DNA of 64,000 bases from Acidobacteriota bacterium (GTDB lineage: Bacteria; Acidobacteriota; Holophagae; Holophagales; Holophagaceae): assembly GCA_021794095.1 (NCBI GenBank), contig JAJYRN010000005.1, positions 62,001 through 126,000 of the forward strand. The letters are read 5' to 3'. Positions 53,979-59,137 of this stretch are shown here, piece after piece. The notes under the pieces were generated by a model. That model did no database searches, had not been told where the DNA came from, and saw only the letters and a program-made list of their open reading frames with translations. Positions within the stretch are counted from its first letter, which is position 1. Every line of letters begins with the position of its first letter. A program made the position numbers and the translations under genes.

Positions 53979-55007
53979 CTACTTGAGGTGCTTCAGGGAG
54001 GGATCGTTCAGCATGTCCTTGGCCGTGGCCGCATTCTTGCCGGTGGGGGCAAGCTCCAGATACTTCTGGAGGTTCTGCTTGGTCGCGTGGAGGTTGTTCT
54101 CACCGAACGACACCATGGCCATCAGGTAGTAGGCTTCTGCGAATTTCGGGTCCACCTTGAGCACCTTCCCCAACTGCGTCTTGGCCGCTCCGGTGTTGCC
54201 GGCGTTGAAGGCCTCGACCGCCTTGTTGTAGAGCACGCCTGGGTTGGGGCCCTGGATGGCGTCAAGATCGGCCTGGTACTTGGCTTCCGCAGCCTTGTCG
54301 CCCTTGGCTTTGGCCACCTGGATCAGGCTTGCAAGCACCAGTTCGTCCTTCGGATTCACAGTGAGCGCCTTTTGCAAGAAGGGCTCGGCCTCGGCCTTGC
54401 GGTCGGGGCTGCCCATGGCAAGGCAGATGCCGTAGACCCGGGAAACCTGGGGCAGGAGGTTGGCCGTCTCCGCCTTGGCTTTGTCGTCCTTCGTCTCGGC
54501 CAAAGACTCATTGATCTTCTTGTAGGCCGTCTCGATGCCAGGAAGCGCCTCGCTGTACTTCTGGGCATTGTAGAGGGGGATGATCGAGTTGAAGGCGTCG
54601 CGGCCCGCGGCATCAGCCGCGGCGCCGGGGTCCGCTGGAACGGTTTTCGCGGTTCCATTGGCGATGGCATCGGCCTGTGCCTGGTCGGGCGTCAGCAGCG
54701 TGTAGTCCTTCTTCAGGACATCCGCGAGGGGGATTTTCTCGTTCTTGTCTTCCAGACCGATGAACCCGTCGGCGCTGACGGTGATGTTGTAGAGCCTGGG
54801 TTCCAGGCCGACCTGCATGAACTCGCCATGGGCGTTTGTCGTCAATTCCTTGGTCCAGTGGATATCCAGCCGGTTCAGGACGACCTTGGCCCCCTTGATG
54901 GGCTTCCCTTCCTTGGTGAGTACTTTGCCGGCAATCCGGCCGGTGGACTCAGCATGCATCGAGAGACAAAGGGCAGGCAGCAGAAGGGCGGGCAGCAGGC
55001 GTCGCAT
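53979..55007 (-). CDS. Exported TPR protein with carboxypeptidase-regulatory-like N-domain
   Basis: This 342-residue exported protein has signal peptide LLPALLLPALCLSMHA. Residues 25-110 form a carboxypeptidase regulatory-like beta domain (GRIAGKVLTKEGKPIKGAKVVL). After an Ala-rich linker, TPR motifs follow (about 150-330: FLQKALTVNPKDELVLASL, FNAGNTGAAKTQLGKVLKVD). Such proteins are common in Acidobacteriota and act as scaffolds in the envelope. ATG at 55007 has GGAGG 5 bases upstream; ATG 55010 and 55019 are also in frame. Confidence 0.85.
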   Translation of the reverse strand: MRRLLPALLLPALCLSMHAESTGRIAGKVLTKEGKPIKGAKVVLNRLDIHWTKELTTNAHGEFMQVGLEPRLYNITVSADGFIGLEDKNEKIPLADVLKKDYTLLTPDQAQADAIANGTAKTVPADPGAAADAAGRDAFNSIIPLYNAQKYSEALPGIETAYKKINESLAETKDDKAKAETANLLPQVSRVYGICLAMGSPDRKAEAEPFLQKALTVNPKDELVLASLIQVAKAKGDKAAEAKYQADLDAIQGPNPGVLYNKAVEAFNAGNTGAAKTQLGKVLKVDPKFAEAYYLMAMVSFGENNLHATKQNLQKYLELAPTGKNAATAKDMLNDPSLKHLK

Positions 55008-55189
55008 CATTTCCTCCATAACCCATCCATCGTTCCACAGGTACGGTCCTTCGCGGAGTGCTTTTCGTCAAAGCCATTCCCGCATCAGGCAAGGCCCGGC
55101 ATGGAGCCTGTTCCCAGTGCGCATGCGGGAAAATCCGGGCTGTGGTAGGCTTCCCGGCAGAACATTCCGAACCTGTCTGGGGTATCCCG

Positions 55190-55477
55190 ATGAATGCTGC
55201 GGTACCAGAAGCCTCCTTGACTGCGCTGATGCATCTCCTGGCTGAGCAGGCTTTGATGGCCATGGGGGTGCCCCATCCCATGATGAAGGACGTGCCCCCT
55301 GCCAATCCGCCCGTCGCACGGTTCTATGTGGATCTCCTTTCGGTGCTCCAGGTGAAAACAGAGGGCCTCCGCACAGATGCCGAAAGTCGGGAGTTGGAAG
55401 ACCTCCTGTACCAGCTCCGGATGCAGATCCTGGACCTGAAACCCGCCCCTGGGGCACCAGACGGCCCAAGGCCGTGA
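55190..55477 (+). CDS. DUF1844 family protein
   Basis: This 95-residue helical protein matches DUF1844: LTALMHLLAEQALMAMGVPH, PVARFYVDLLSVLQVKTEGL and LEDLLYQLRMQILDL are characteristic of the family. The function is unknown; members are found mainly in Acidobacteriota, deltaproteobacteria and related groups. ATG at 55190; a TAGGCT at 55146-55151 may be the -10 of a promoter for this and the next two genes. The TPR/zinc-ribbon gene follows with a start 11 bp after its stop (or overlapping via GTG 55474). Confidence 0.82.
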   Translation: MNAAVPEASLTALMHLLAEQALMAMGVPHPMMKDVPPANPPVARFYVDLLSVLQVKTEGLRTDAESRELEDLLYQLRMQILDLKPAPGAPDGPRP

Positions 55478-55488
55478 CGAGGTTGGAT

Positions 55489-57357
55489 ATGGGCTTCTGG
55501 AAGGCGATCCGCACCGCCCTCTGCCTCCTGGGCGCGGGATGGATGCTGGCAGCCGTGGCAGCACCGCCACCGCGTGCGCCGGTCGCGCCCATCCGAATGC
55601 CGGATCCAGGCCAGGCCCCAGCCATTGCGTTGAGCCACCGGGTGGCCCGCCTTCAGGCCGCGCTTCTGGAACGGGATCCCAACGCTGTGCACAAGGTCCA
55701 GCTCGAAGTGGACGTGCTGCGGAGAACCTATTCCACGCTGGATGTGACCCCCTTGGTCGAGGCGATGGCGGTATGGGCGCGACAGGAAGGCCTTCAAGGG
55801 CACCCTGATATCGGCCTTGAAGCCCTTCAGGCCGTCGAGTCCTGGAAACCGAACTTGCCCGCCGTCCTGAGCGCGCGGATTTCCCTCACCCGTCAGCAGG
55901 GGGCTGCAGGGTGGTTCTGGAGTGTTCCCGATCTTCTGCGCCTCACGCAGGTGCGTCTGGACCATCCCGAATTCCAGTGGCTCTGGCTGGTCCAGCATCT
56001 TGGCATGCTCCGGCTGATGGCGACCCTGCTGCTCTGGGGGTGGGCCCTCACCCTGGCCCTGCGCTACCGGAATGTGCTGAGGGCGCTCTGGGAGGAACCC
56101 CTGGAGCGGCATGGAATCGGGCCCCTGCCCGCAGCGATTCTGGGCGCCCTGCTGCTGAGCCTTCCGGTCCTTCTGGGGCTGGATCCCTTGGTCGCCGCTG
56201 TGTTGTGGGTGATCCTCATGGCCCCCTTCCTCACTTCGGTCGAGGTCAAGGCGACGGTCTTCATCCTGCTGCTCCAGTTGGTCCATCCCGTGCTTGGCGT
56301 CATGGAGCCCTGGTCTGCCCGGGAACCTCAGCCCAGCATTCTCGCCCTTCAGCTCCAGCCGCAGGCACAGCCCGTGTCTCCAGCCACCCTCCGGGAGCTT
56401 CCTCCGGCTGACCGCACCTTCCTGGCGGGCTGGTCCCAGCTTCAACGAATGGATTGGAAGGGCGCTGAGGCGACGTTCCAGTCTCTGGTGGGACGGACCC
56501 CCGAACAGCCTGAGGTGTTGAACAACCTCGGGGTAGCCCATTTCGAACTGGGGGAAATTCCCCAGGCTGAACAGGATTTCCAGGCCGCAGCACGGCTGGG
56601 GCCCCGGATGGAGGTTCTGCTGAACCAGAGCATCCTTGACTTCATCCATCTGGACACGGATGCCGGGGCCGCCAAGCGGGCCGCCGCCCAGGCCGCCTCC
56701 CCAGGCGAGTACGCCCGCCTCATCGAGCTGAATGATGCCCAGAGGGATGTAAGAACCTACCCCATGCCCTTGCCGGACACCCCTGAACGGGTGCGTGATC
56801 TGGCCCGTGGCATGGGCATCAAACTCGAATCTGATGCCATCAATTGGTGGAATCCAGCCTTCCTGTTCGGGCTGCTGTTGCCTTTGTTCGGAGTGGCTGC
56901 CTTCCTTGGGCGGGTGAAGGCCAGCGTCCGTATGGCGCATCCCACCCAGTGCATCCGTTGTGGTGAGCCCTTCCACACCACCGACAGCCCGGATCCGGCT
57001 GTATGTGCCAAGTGCCATCACCTGTTCGTCCTCCGGGATGGGCTCCATGTCGAGAACCGGCGGCGGAAGCTGGATGAGGTGGCTGTCCATCAGCGCGCCA
57101 CCCGCTGGATCCACCGGATTCTCGCCGTGCTCCTGCCAGGGTGCGATCGCATCTTCCTTGGGGATACCCAGGAAGGATTGATGGAATTCGGGCTGCTCTG
57201 CCTGGCCCTGGGGCTGGTTCTGGCCACTGGCCGCTCCGTGCGCTACCCAGGGGAACTCCTGCCGGATCCCACGTCCACCTGGCTGGCCGTTGGCATGGGT
57301 TTGTCCGTCCTGCTGTTCCTCCGATCCTGGCTGAAGTTGATCCCGAGGAGGGCCTGA
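55489..57357 (+). CDS. Polytopic membrane protein with TPR and zinc ribbon
   Basis: This is a 622-residue protein of unknown function. Likely order: signal or anchor helix at the start; helical region to about 165; three to four membrane helices (about 172-275); TPR-like repeats (about 307-375: WKGAEATFQSLV, VLNNLGVAHFELGEIPQAEQ); a membrane helix (about 454-475); a four-cysteine zinc ribbon (CIRCG...CAKC, about 487-515); and two C-terminal membrane helices (about 563-615). ATG at 55489 has GAGG 6 bases upstream; GTG at 55474 is possible. It lies 1 bp before the DUF4388 gene. The mix of TPR, membrane helices and zinc ribbon is unusual. Confidence 0.8.
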   Translation: MGFWKAIRTALCLLGAGWMLAAVAAPPPRAPVAPIRMPDPGQAPAIALSHRVARLQAALLERDPNAVHKVQLEVDVLRRTYSTLDVTPLVEAMAVWARQEGLQGHPDIGLEALQAVESWKPNLPAVLSARISLTRQQGAAGWFWSVPDLLRLTQVRLDHPEFQWLWLVQHLGMLRLMATLLLWGWALTLALRYRNVLRALWEEPLERHGIGPLPAAILGALLLSLPVLLGLDPLVAAVLWVILMAPFLTSVEVKATVFILLLQLVHPVLGVMEPWSAREPQPSILALQLQPQAQPVSPATLRELPPADRTFLAGWSQLQRMDWKGAEATFQSLVGRTPEQPEVLNNLGVAHFELGEIPQAEQDFQAAARLGPRMEVLLNQSILDFIHLDTDAGAAKRAAAQAASPGEYARLIELNDAQRDVRTYPMPLPDTPERVRDLARGMGIKLESDAINWWNPAFLFGLLLPLFGVAAFLGRVKASVRMAHPTQCIRCGEPFHTTDSPDPAVCAKCHHLFVLRDGLHVENRRRKLDEVAVHQRATRWIHRILAVLLPGCDRIFLGDTQEGLMEFGLLCLALGLVLATGRSVRYPGELLPDPTSTWLAVGMGLSVLLFLRSWLKLIPRRA

Positions 57358-57358
57358 T

Positions 57359-58522
57359 ATGGCGCTGGAAGGATCCCTGAGGGATTTCGACCTCTTCTCT
57401 CTCTTCAACATGATCAAGATCCAGGGCAAGAACGGCACCTTGGTGCTGTCCCAGGGGCAGGAGTTCGTGAAGGTCTTCTTTGAAAACGGGGAGATCGTCG
57501 GTTGCGATTCCAATCAGGTCCGCATGGAAGACCGGCTGGGAACCATGCTGGTGCGTCTCGGCCGCCTCACGGGCGAGGAACTACTGGCCATGGTGCAACT
57601 CCAGCGTCAGACCCTCAAACGCATGGGCACCCTCCTGCTGGAAAGCGGCAAGGTGACCGTCAGCGATATCCAGGACGCCCTGTTCAGCCAAGCCACGGCC
57701 ATCCTCCACCGCACCTTCCGGTGGGTGGAAGGGGATTACCGCTTCGATTCCATGCTCCCCCCGGACCTCGACCGGGAACACTTCCCGGCCATCCCCGTGG
57801 ACACGGTGCTCATGGAAGCCGCGCGGATCCAGGATGAGTGGCCGGAGGTGGAACGGCGCCTGCCGTCCATGACCCAGGGACTGGAGCGGACTTCCCGCGC
57901 GCGGACCCTGCACCTGGACATTGACCGGGATGTCTCCATGGTTCTGGATGGAAAAGGCGGGGTTCATCACGGCTCTTCCGGGCTCACCCATGAACAGGAG
58001 ATGGTCCTGTCCTACTTCGAGCACCCCCAGAGCATCAAGGATGTGGTGCAGATCAGCCGTTACGAGGAGCTGGACACCTGCAAGGCCGTCGCGGACCTGA
58101 TCGAAGCGGGGCTGCTGGCGCCGATGATGGGAGACTCGCTCAAAATGGACCGGCCCTGGGGCCAAGAGGGCACGGCGGAACTCCTGCCCGTGCCCTGGGA
58201 GCCCAGCCCGATTCTCTGGCCTCTCGTGGCGATTCTGATCGCGCTTCCCTTGTGGCTCTACGTTCCCCACGACCGGGGTTCCATCAATGTGGGATTGGCC
58301 AGTCTGCAGCGCGCGGATCTCCGCGAAGCCCCGGATGCGGCCGGCCTGCGCCTGGACTGGGAGCTGCGCATGGCTTCTCCACGGGATGGGGGCGTGGGCC
58401 TCGCGCGGGCCATCGGACGGCCTCTTCCGGGCCGGAACCCCATCGCGGACATGACCCAACTGCCGGATCCCCTCGCCTTGCCCCCGCAACGCCCCGCTTC
58501 GCCCTCCGCCTCCCCCCGCTAG
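57359..58522 (+). CDS. DUF4388/PATAN domain protein with one membrane helix
   Basis: This is a 387-residue protein. The N-terminal DUF4388 (PATAN) domain reads LEGSLRDFDLFSLFNMIKIQ, TLVLSQGQEFVKVFFENGEIVG; a second helical module with VSDIQDALFSQA and a winged-helix-like stretch (IKDVVQISRYEELDTCKAVADLI) follow, then a membrane helix at about 283-302 (ILWPLVAILIALPLWLYV) and an about 85-residue exported tail. PATAN domains interact with receivers and sensory systems. Its neighbours and the tight spacing suggest a complex with the TPR/zinc-ribbon protein. Not characterised. Confidence 0.8.
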   Translation: MALEGSLRDFDLFSLFNMIKIQGKNGTLVLSQGQEFVKVFFENGEIVGCDSNQVRMEDRLGTMLVRLGRLTGEELLAMVQLQRQTLKRMGTLLLESGKVTVSDIQDALFSQATAILHRTFRWVEGDYRFDSMLPPDLDREHFPAIPVDTVLMEAARIQDEWPEVERRLPSMTQGLERTSRARTLHLDIDRDVSMVLDGKGGVHHGSSGLTHEQEMVLSYFEHPQSIKDVVQISRYEELDTCKAVADLIEAGLLAPMMGDSLKMDRPWGQEGTAELLPVPWEPSPILWPLVAILIALPLWLYVPHDRGSINVGLASLQRADLREAPDAAGLRLDWELRMASPRDGGVGLARAIGRPLPGRNPIADMTQLPDPLALPPQRPASPSASPR

Positions 58523-58537
58523 CACACAGGATTCCCC

Positions 58538-59137
58538 ATGTACGTTCACCAGCGCCAAGGCTCGCTGGAGGTTATTTGCGGTCCCATGTTCTCCGGGAAA
58601 TCCGAGGAACTCATCCGGCGCATCAAGCGGGCCATCATCGCTCGCCAGCGGGTCCAGGTGTTCAAGCCGGCCCTGGATGACCGCTATGACGCTTCCGCCA
58701 TCGCCAGCCACAGCCAAGGCAGGCACGACGCCATCCCGGTGAAGGACAGCGATGAACTGCGCCGCCACCTGGATCCCGAAGCCGAGGTGGTGGCCCTTGA
58801 TGAGGTGCAGTTCCTCGACGAGGGGATTTTGCCGGTGATTGATGCGCTGGCTGATCGGGGGGTCCGTGTCATCGCTGCGGGGCTGGATCAGGATTCCAAT
58901 GGCGAACCCTTCGGGATCATGCCGATCCTTCTGGCCAAGGCGGAGTACATCACCAAGCTCCAGGCCATCTGCATGGTCTGCGGAGCCCAGGCCGGGCGGA
59001 CCCAGCGGCTGGTCCTTACGGGCGGTCAGGTGCTCGTGGGGGCTGCCGAGGCCTATGAAGCCCGCTGCCGCCACTGCCATGAGGCATCGCACGCCACGGG
59101 ACAGCGACTTCTCGAGGAGCCCGGCCGGGAGGCATGA
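58538..59137 (+). CDS. tdk: Thymidine kinase, type II
   Basis: This 199-residue enzyme phosphorylates thymidine for dTMP salvage. Walker A is GPMFSGKSEEL, Walker B-like VVALDEVQFL, and the lasso zinc-binding cysteines are in CMVCGA and CRHCHE. Length and motifs fit the bacterial/human TK1 group. It starts 15 bp after the DUF4388 stop. Confidence 0.96.
   Translation: MYVHQRQGSLEVICGPMFSGKSEELIRRIKRAIIARQRVQVFKPALDDRYDASAIASHSQGRHDAIPVKDSDELRRHLDPEAEVVALDEVQFLDEGILPVIDALADRGVRVIAAGLDQDSNGEPFGIMPILLAKAEYITKLQAICMVCGAQAGRTQRLVLTGGQVLVGAAEAYEARCRHCHEASHATGQRLLEEPGREA

Follow-up and report, generated by a model that had tools for sequence, protein, structure and literature searches.

Three kinds of described protein come closest to the system reported here: proteins with an MshEN domain, regulators with a PATAN domain, and the major pseudopilin of type II secretion. 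The MshEN domain consists of two 24-residue motifs joined by a 5-residue spacer, as given in part of the paper on this domain (PMC5013675), and in Synechocystis the pilus motor PilB1 is a binding target of PATAN regulators, as stated in part of another paper (PMC9090330). We analyzed a stretch of 64,000 nucleotides from a member of the Acidobacteriota (family Holophagaceae; assembly GCA_021794095.1, contig JAJYRN010000005.1, positions 62,001 to 126,000), which we will call the window. It contains a unit of three genes that encode a DUF1844 protein, a membrane protein with tetratricopeptide repeats (TPR) and a zinc ribbon, and a DUF4388 protein. (The Acidobacteriota are a phylum of soil and sediment bacteria.) We found that the PATAN domain of the DUF4388 protein holds an MshEN-type insertion, so its input is likely to be cyclic di-GMP (c-di-GMP), as judged from sequence and a structural model. 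With moderate confidence, we propose that the three genes encode an inner-membrane complex in which a TPR/zinc-ribbon scaffold holds the DUF4388 protein, which would act as a transmembrane receptor for c-di-GMP. This proposal uses computed domains, conserved gene order, motif conservation, and fold matches, and from these we infer ligand binding, a physical complex, its topology, and its output.

The MshEN-type insertion of the PATAN domain

The window's DUF4388 protein matches PF14332 with 86.4 bits, which is over the cut-off of 25. (We take DUF4388 and PATAN to be the same domain.) The match spreads 158 residues of the protein over 121 positions of the profile, so there is an insertion inside the domain. 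The insertion has one motif at residues 59-82, a spacer at residues 83-87, and a second motif at residues 88-111, which is exactly the 24-5-24 layout of MshEN. Among 87 distinct DUF4388 proteins, nearly all have this layout from residue 59 onward. (In the counts of distinct units and distinct loci below, loci whose membrane proteins do not differ in the last 150 residues count as one.) All six core residues of the ligand site, which are R or K at position 1, G at position 3, and Q at position 24 of both motifs, are present in the window. They are intact in 89 of 117 distinct units from many families, and at least five of the six are present in 101 of the 117.

Profile and structure comparisons also point to MshEN. 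NF053729, the NCBIfam model for an MshE-related c-di-GMP motif, matches the window's protein with E = 6.3e-8 and the protein from a related locus, L107, with 59.2 bits. It matches 34 of 35 unit members at E ≤ 0.001 (best E = 2.5e-16) and, in a separate set, 19 of 19 at E ≤ 0.1. When a profile of the family was compared to the PDB, it matched MshE (5htl, E = 7.7e-11) and PilF (E = 5.9e-19). The AlphaFold model of the L107 protein, with a mean predicted local distance difference test (pLDDT) of 84.5, aligned to c-di-GMP-bound MshE (5htl_B) with Z = 10.6, a root-mean-square deviation (rmsd) of 2.6 across 61 residues, and 43% identity. With Foldseek, the DUF4388 model had no match in the PDB at E ≤ 0.001, and a second structural comparison of the L107 model barely covered the PATAN fold. 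The preliminary description of this DNA had recognized a PATAN sensor module in the last protein; the PATAN domain is indeed there, but its MshEN-type insertion had been overlooked.

Conservation of the three genes

Our gene calls agree with the preliminary description, which had placed the three genes head to tail with gaps of 11 bp (DUF1844 to membrane gene) and 1 bp (membrane gene to DUF4388); all three genes lie on the forward strand. Pfam also finds the families that the description had named, DUF1844, TPR, and DUF4388, in that order. An alternative GTG start for the membrane gene at 55474 would give a 4 bp overlap with the DUF1844 stop codon, and this type of overlap, seen at 57 loci (some from the same genome), was the commonest spacing of the two genes according to an open reading frame caller that picks the most upstream start. 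Because the caller favors upstream starts, and because AGGAGG lies directly ahead of the later ATG in several members of the genus, 55489 is the likelier start.

The gene order DUF1844-membrane-DUF4388 is conserved across the Acidobacteriota, beyond chance. (The assignment of loci to this phylum is inferred from shared records, and many of the records from our scan of genome contigs are named Acidobacteria.) In all 16 of the distant neighborhoods that we fetched, the DUF4388 gene is directly 3' of the membrane gene. Another 40 loci include 38 with a DUF4388 gene (37 adjacent and one 2.5 kb away) and two whose contigs end first; in 35 of the 40, the membrane gene is preceded by DUF1844. Among 42 named loci from the scan of genome contigs, 41 have the pair of membrane gene and DUF4388, and 35 have DUF1844 as well. 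The sole exception (L147) is a TPR-only match and was dropped before counts. Thus the three genes do stay together in relatives, which the preliminary description had left to be checked. Long open reading frames that seemed to fuse DUF4388 with the membrane protein look like frame read-throughs, and we rejected them as fusions.

Using a profile built from 18 membrane proteins (E ≤ 1e-20), we found that 118 of 297 Acidobacteriota genomes encode all or nearly all of the membrane protein. (This is a hand count from the listing of matches, and a few of the 118 are on cut contigs.) All 297 genomes match the profile, which is not the right count, because the other genomes, among the matches listed, match in the TPR part only. 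The scan of genome contigs returned loci from Acidobacteriota, Methylomirabilota-type loci, a few unassigned metagenome-assembled genomes, and the one TPR-only match. It was restricted to two zinc-ribbon patterns, so that absence elsewhere is not shown, and it returned no deltaproteobacterial locus; a spread to deltaproteobacteria, where the preliminary description had proposed to search, thus found no support. In three of the Methylomirabilota-type loci (L123, L140, and L143), the pair is present and DUF1844 was not detected, while L144 begins inside the gene. L143 lies in the genome G329 (a Candidatus Methylomirabilis record); of 60 genomes from the phylum of G329, 7 encode the membrane protein in full length (E ≤ 1e-100), and two others reach 1e-20 through their TPR part alone. 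By these matches, the membrane protein is patchy in the Methylomirabilota.

Features of the three-gene unit and the next gene downstream, with positions in the window
Feature	Position	Strand	Details
DUF1844 protein	55190..55477	+	95 aa, small, predicted soluble; Pfam PF08899 E 1.6e-12
Membrane protein: signal segment, helical N-terminal lobe, about 7 transmembrane helices, TPR lobe, zinc ribbon	55489..57357	+	
TPR lobe	56401..56739	+	residues about 305-417; Pfam TPR_16; AlphaFold model vs TPR structures
Zinc ribbon CxxC...CxxC, C488-C509	56950..57015	+	four cysteines C488, C491, C506, C509
DUF4388/PATAN protein: MshEN-type insertion, winged-helix-like domain, one transmembrane helix, exported tail	57359..58522	+	387 aa
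DUF4388/PATAN domain, including insertion	57368..57841	+	residues 4-161; Pfam PF14332 E 2e-24
MshEN-type c-di-GMP-binding insertion (predicted)	57533..57691	+	residues 59-111, layout 24-5-24; NF053729; motif; L107 structure
Winged-helix-like domain	58019..58132	+	residues about 221-258; weak Pfam HTH_27 E 0.062; L107 model 221-265
Single membrane helix	58208..58264	+	residues 284-302; hydropathy
Short exported tail	58265..58519	+	about 85 residues; site of GspG-like pseudopilin domain in most relatives
tdk	58538-59137	+	next gene 3' of the DUF4388 gene

The membrane partner, the exported tail, and DUF1844

In the window's membrane protein, a signal-like segment and about seven membrane helices can be recognized, and the topology of the helices agrees with the positive-inside rule. 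By that rule, the TPR lobe is predicted to be periplasmic and the zinc ribbon cytoplasmic. The match to TPR_16 (E = 1.9e-7, 31.9 bits) is slightly under the Pfam cut-off of 32.7; the AlphaFold model (mean pLDDT 83.2) has a TPR fold at residues 294-417, with Z up to 15.7 and an rmsd of 2.0 across 116 residues. Comparison of this model to solved structures found generic TPR structures only and no closer relative. The cysteines of the zinc ribbon are invariant in 18 aligned membrane proteins, and many relatives have a third CxxC. Topology, fold, and cysteines all agree with the preliminary description of the middle protein, which had listed about seven helices, TPR repeats, and a zinc ribbon.

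The zinc ribbon was lost in 5 of the 117 distinct units, and all five are among the 16 units with a degraded MshEN motif (5/16 vs. 0/101). This linked loss is compatible with the membrane protein and the DUF4388 protein being in contact. The five loci are L095, L096, L097, L101, and L103, and three of them have longer DUF4388 proteins.

In the DUF4388 protein, the preliminary description had placed a winged-helix-like stretch and one membrane helix with an exported tail after the PATAN domain. The first is fair by predicted structure, though the Pfam match is weak, and hydropathy agrees with the second. In most relatives, the membrane helix is followed by a GspG-like pseudopilin domain with a DPWG..Y.Y motif. 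T2SSG (PF08334) is at or over the Pfam cut-off in 5 of 8 proteins that were scanned singly (the five are L110, L117, L140, L143, and L144) and matches 12 of 35 proteins at E ≤ 0.01. Furthermore, the L107 model aligned to crystal structures of GspG/EpsG with Z of 8.2-8.6 across 83-92 residues (24-26% identity); because a Z near 8 can reflect a common structural arrangement, we give the sequence evidence for a GspG-like tail equal weight. Tails that are shorter and look unrelated are found in the window's family and in one sister family, and a Pfam scan of the window's DUF4388 protein found no match to PF08334. The membrane helix comes after roughly 280 residues of cytoplasmic domains, so there is no N-terminal prepilin leader directly ahead of it.

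The window's DUF1844 protein is over the cut-off for PF08899 (47.8 bits vs. 27). A comparison of the DUF1844 profile to the PDB gave nothing credible (best E = 0.18, for a fragment of UvrB). DUF1844 adjoins the membrane gene, on its upstream side, in 36 of 37 genomes of the window's genus, and the single miss is a genome that is 71% complete. In contrast, none of the 16 genomes from two sister families has DUF1844, yet 13 of these 16 match the membrane protein. By these matches, DUF1844 is dispensable to the unit: it is an accessory that some lineages do without.

Output, alternatives, and known systems

In our proposed mechanism, the four-helix MshEN-type insertion would bind c-di-GMP in the cytoplasm. 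The receptor would be tied, via the winged-helix-like domain and the one membrane helix, to a periplasmic module, which would be the GspG-like pseudopilin domain in most relatives and the short tail in the window's family. The seven-helix protein would be the constant membrane partner, with periplasmic TPR lobes and a cytoplasmic zinc ribbon, and DUF1844 would be an accessory. When c-di-GMP binds, PATAN would move relative to its partner, and this would alter the effect of the complex on an envelope machine. The preliminary description had suggested a complex that links the PATAN module to the envelope. Our results support such a coupling by a conserved unit, but the MshEN-type insertion and the pseudopilin-like tail of the relatives had been missed.

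As to which machine this might be, we tentatively suggest a type IV pilus or type II secretion-like machinery, by analogy. Such an output seems the most likely one, though at less than even odds, because PATAN regulators bind PilB1 and because the exported domain of most relatives is pseudopilin-like. A strong PilB is present in 111 of the 118 genomes that carry the unit. The best PilB match has E > 1e-180, or there is none, in 61 of the 297 genomes, and 7 of these carry the unit, vs. 111 of the 236 genomes with a stronger PilB (Fisher p = 1.4e-7, from hand counts that are not corrected for phylogeny). As for the supply of c-di-GMP, GGDEF is found in 290 of the 297 genomes, and none of the seven genomes without it carries the unit. 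This is a low-power test of the c-di-GMP reading because GGDEF is near-universal and is also found in carriers with degraded MshEN motifs. A 1.2 Mb genome from the window's family (G215), which is apparently reduced, has no GGDEF match, no full-length membrane protein, and a weaker PilB-like ATPase.

Several observations weigh against the proposed receptor and its link to pili. With 32.3 bits, the window's NF053729 score falls short of the curated cut-off (38), and in the L107 protein that was modelled, motif I begins with L in place of R. At position 11 the published motif calls for a hydrophobic residue, but the window carries a basic one in each motif (R in I, K in II). Eight changes are listed for the non-binding protein XpsE in part of the MshEN paper (PMC5013675); I19R is present in the window and the other seven are not. 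Because position 11 is basic in both motifs, we call the insertion MshEN-type and not a proven receptor. The motif is degraded in 16 of the 117 units, so c-di-GMP binding is not essential to all units. The joint loss of zinc ribbon and MshEN motif may represent a few events in related lineages that are not independent. The window's family lacks the pseudopilin tail, and the identified neighbors of the unit are housekeeping or chaperone genes, with no pil or gsp gene among them. Finally, PilB is near-universal (294 of 297 genomes at E ≤ 1e-60), and seven carriers do not have a strong PilB, which implies that a strong PilB is not strictly required for the unit. With these exceptions, and without correction for phylogeny, the link to pili is weak.

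A more specific variant, which we consider possible although doubtful, is that the receptor itself displays the periplasmic pseudopilin-like domain, so that c-di-GMP, acting from the inside and bypassing the motor ATPase, would have direct control over whether a pilus or pseudopilus is primed or docked.

It is unlikely that the unit is instead a proteostasis module within the DnaK heat-shock operon that senses, or helps to fold, membrane or exported proteins. The idea comes from the neighborhood: in 31 of 69 distinct loci, dnaK begins 51-400 bp 3' of the DUF4388 gene (29 of them within 172 bp; this count excludes loci for which just 1.5 kb of flank or less than 2.2 kb of downstream sequence was available). 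In many Acidobacteriota families, the order is mazG (divergent)-DUF1844-membrane gene-DUF4388-dnaK-hsp20-dnaJ-hspR-sigma-70-dnaC-like (L030, L070-L080, L107, and L131-L139 are among these loci). However, of 29 loci, 17 have an operator-like TTGACA/ACTCA element in or close to the DUF4388-dnaK gap, and just 1 has such an element 5' of DUF1844. (We required at least 10 of 14 matches to what we presume is the HAIR consensus, and two of the 31 dnaK loci, L096 and L097, were left out.) This placement suggests that dnaK probably starts its own operon and is a neighbor that does not share one with the unit, so we dropped membership of the unit in a heat-shock operon. Moreover, dnaK is not adjacent in the window nor in several other lineages. 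The gap before dnaK contains a conserved CTTGACAA-N-ACTCA element (as in L133, L146, and L030), which may combine a -35 box with an HspR-type operator. In the window, the divergent neighbor of the unit (53979-55019, reverse strand) encodes a carboxypeptidase-regulatory-like domain and TPRs, with an N-terminus that looks signal-like by eye.

We give still less credence to the idea that the MshEN-type insertion is a structural leftover, with PATAN and its insertion serving for contact between proteins and binding no nucleotide. The basic residues at position 11 in the window would fit it, as would the degraded motifs, which include those of three of the four Methylomirabilota-type loci (L140, L143, and L144, not L123). 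Also, a paper from 2006 reportedly names an alpha-helical insertion in PATAN in its title, which is all that reference lists give. A structural role alone would poorly explain why 89 of 117 units from many families retain all six residues that contact the ligand.

The least probable alternative is a membrane-anchored, ToxR-like transcription factor whose winged helix binds DNA under the control of c-di-GMP or a periplasmic cue: the order of domains (cytoplasmic winged-helix-like domain, transmembrane helix, periplasmic domain), structural neighbors that include IclR, Lrp-type, and MarR regulators (Z of about 4.5-6), and matches to the NCBIfam family Sta1 in 9 of 19 proteins (E ≤ 0.1) would suit it, but the best structural matches of the winged helix are subunits of the GATOR1/SEA complexes (Z up to 9.9), which are not known to bind DNA, and the putative recognition helix is acidic, with a net negative charge in 55 of 56 distinct helices (mean -2.1), a charge that is partly built in, as the pattern that captured the helices (107/144) demanded an acidic first residue.

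If our proposed receptor complex is correct, then a phylum-wide envelope unit of three uncharacterized families has a concrete candidate input, c-di-GMP. Our results suggest that the helical insertion of PATAN can be an MshEN-type c-di-GMP site, and this may extend to other PATAN proteins. If the form that bears a pseudopilin domain binds c-di-GMP, it would be a new route for this messenger across the inner membrane.

In agreement with the preliminary description, which knew of no system with this combination, we found no description of the three-gene unit in the literature that we searched, whose coverage leaves out most subscription papers and the domain-fusion tables of the MshEN paper, which could list PATAN. 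DUF4388 and DUF1844 each appear there in a single paper, as a table entry. Thus, the unit itself is undescribed, while its type of receptor, MshEN, is already known. Compared to the cyanobacterial PATAN-REC regulators PixE and LsiR, the unit's protein shares the PATAN/DUF4388 domain but has no receiver domain, is anchored in the membrane, and is paired with a TPR/zinc-ribbon membrane protein. The tail of the relatives is like the major pseudopilin GspG of type II secretion in having a transmembrane helix, a long helix, the DPWG..Y.Y motif, and the GspG fold; unlike GspG, the unit's protein has cytoplasmic sensor domains before its membrane helix, and in the window's family the pseudopilin domain is absent. 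With the MshEN domain of MshE, PilF, and NfrB, the insertion shares the 53-residue tandem 24-5-24 layout, the R/G/Q positions, and the fold match to 5htl. In those proteins, however, MshEN is joined to an ATPase or a glycosyltransferase, whereas the unit's copy, with its basic position 11 in the window, lies inside PATAN and is joined to a membrane helix and an exported domain.

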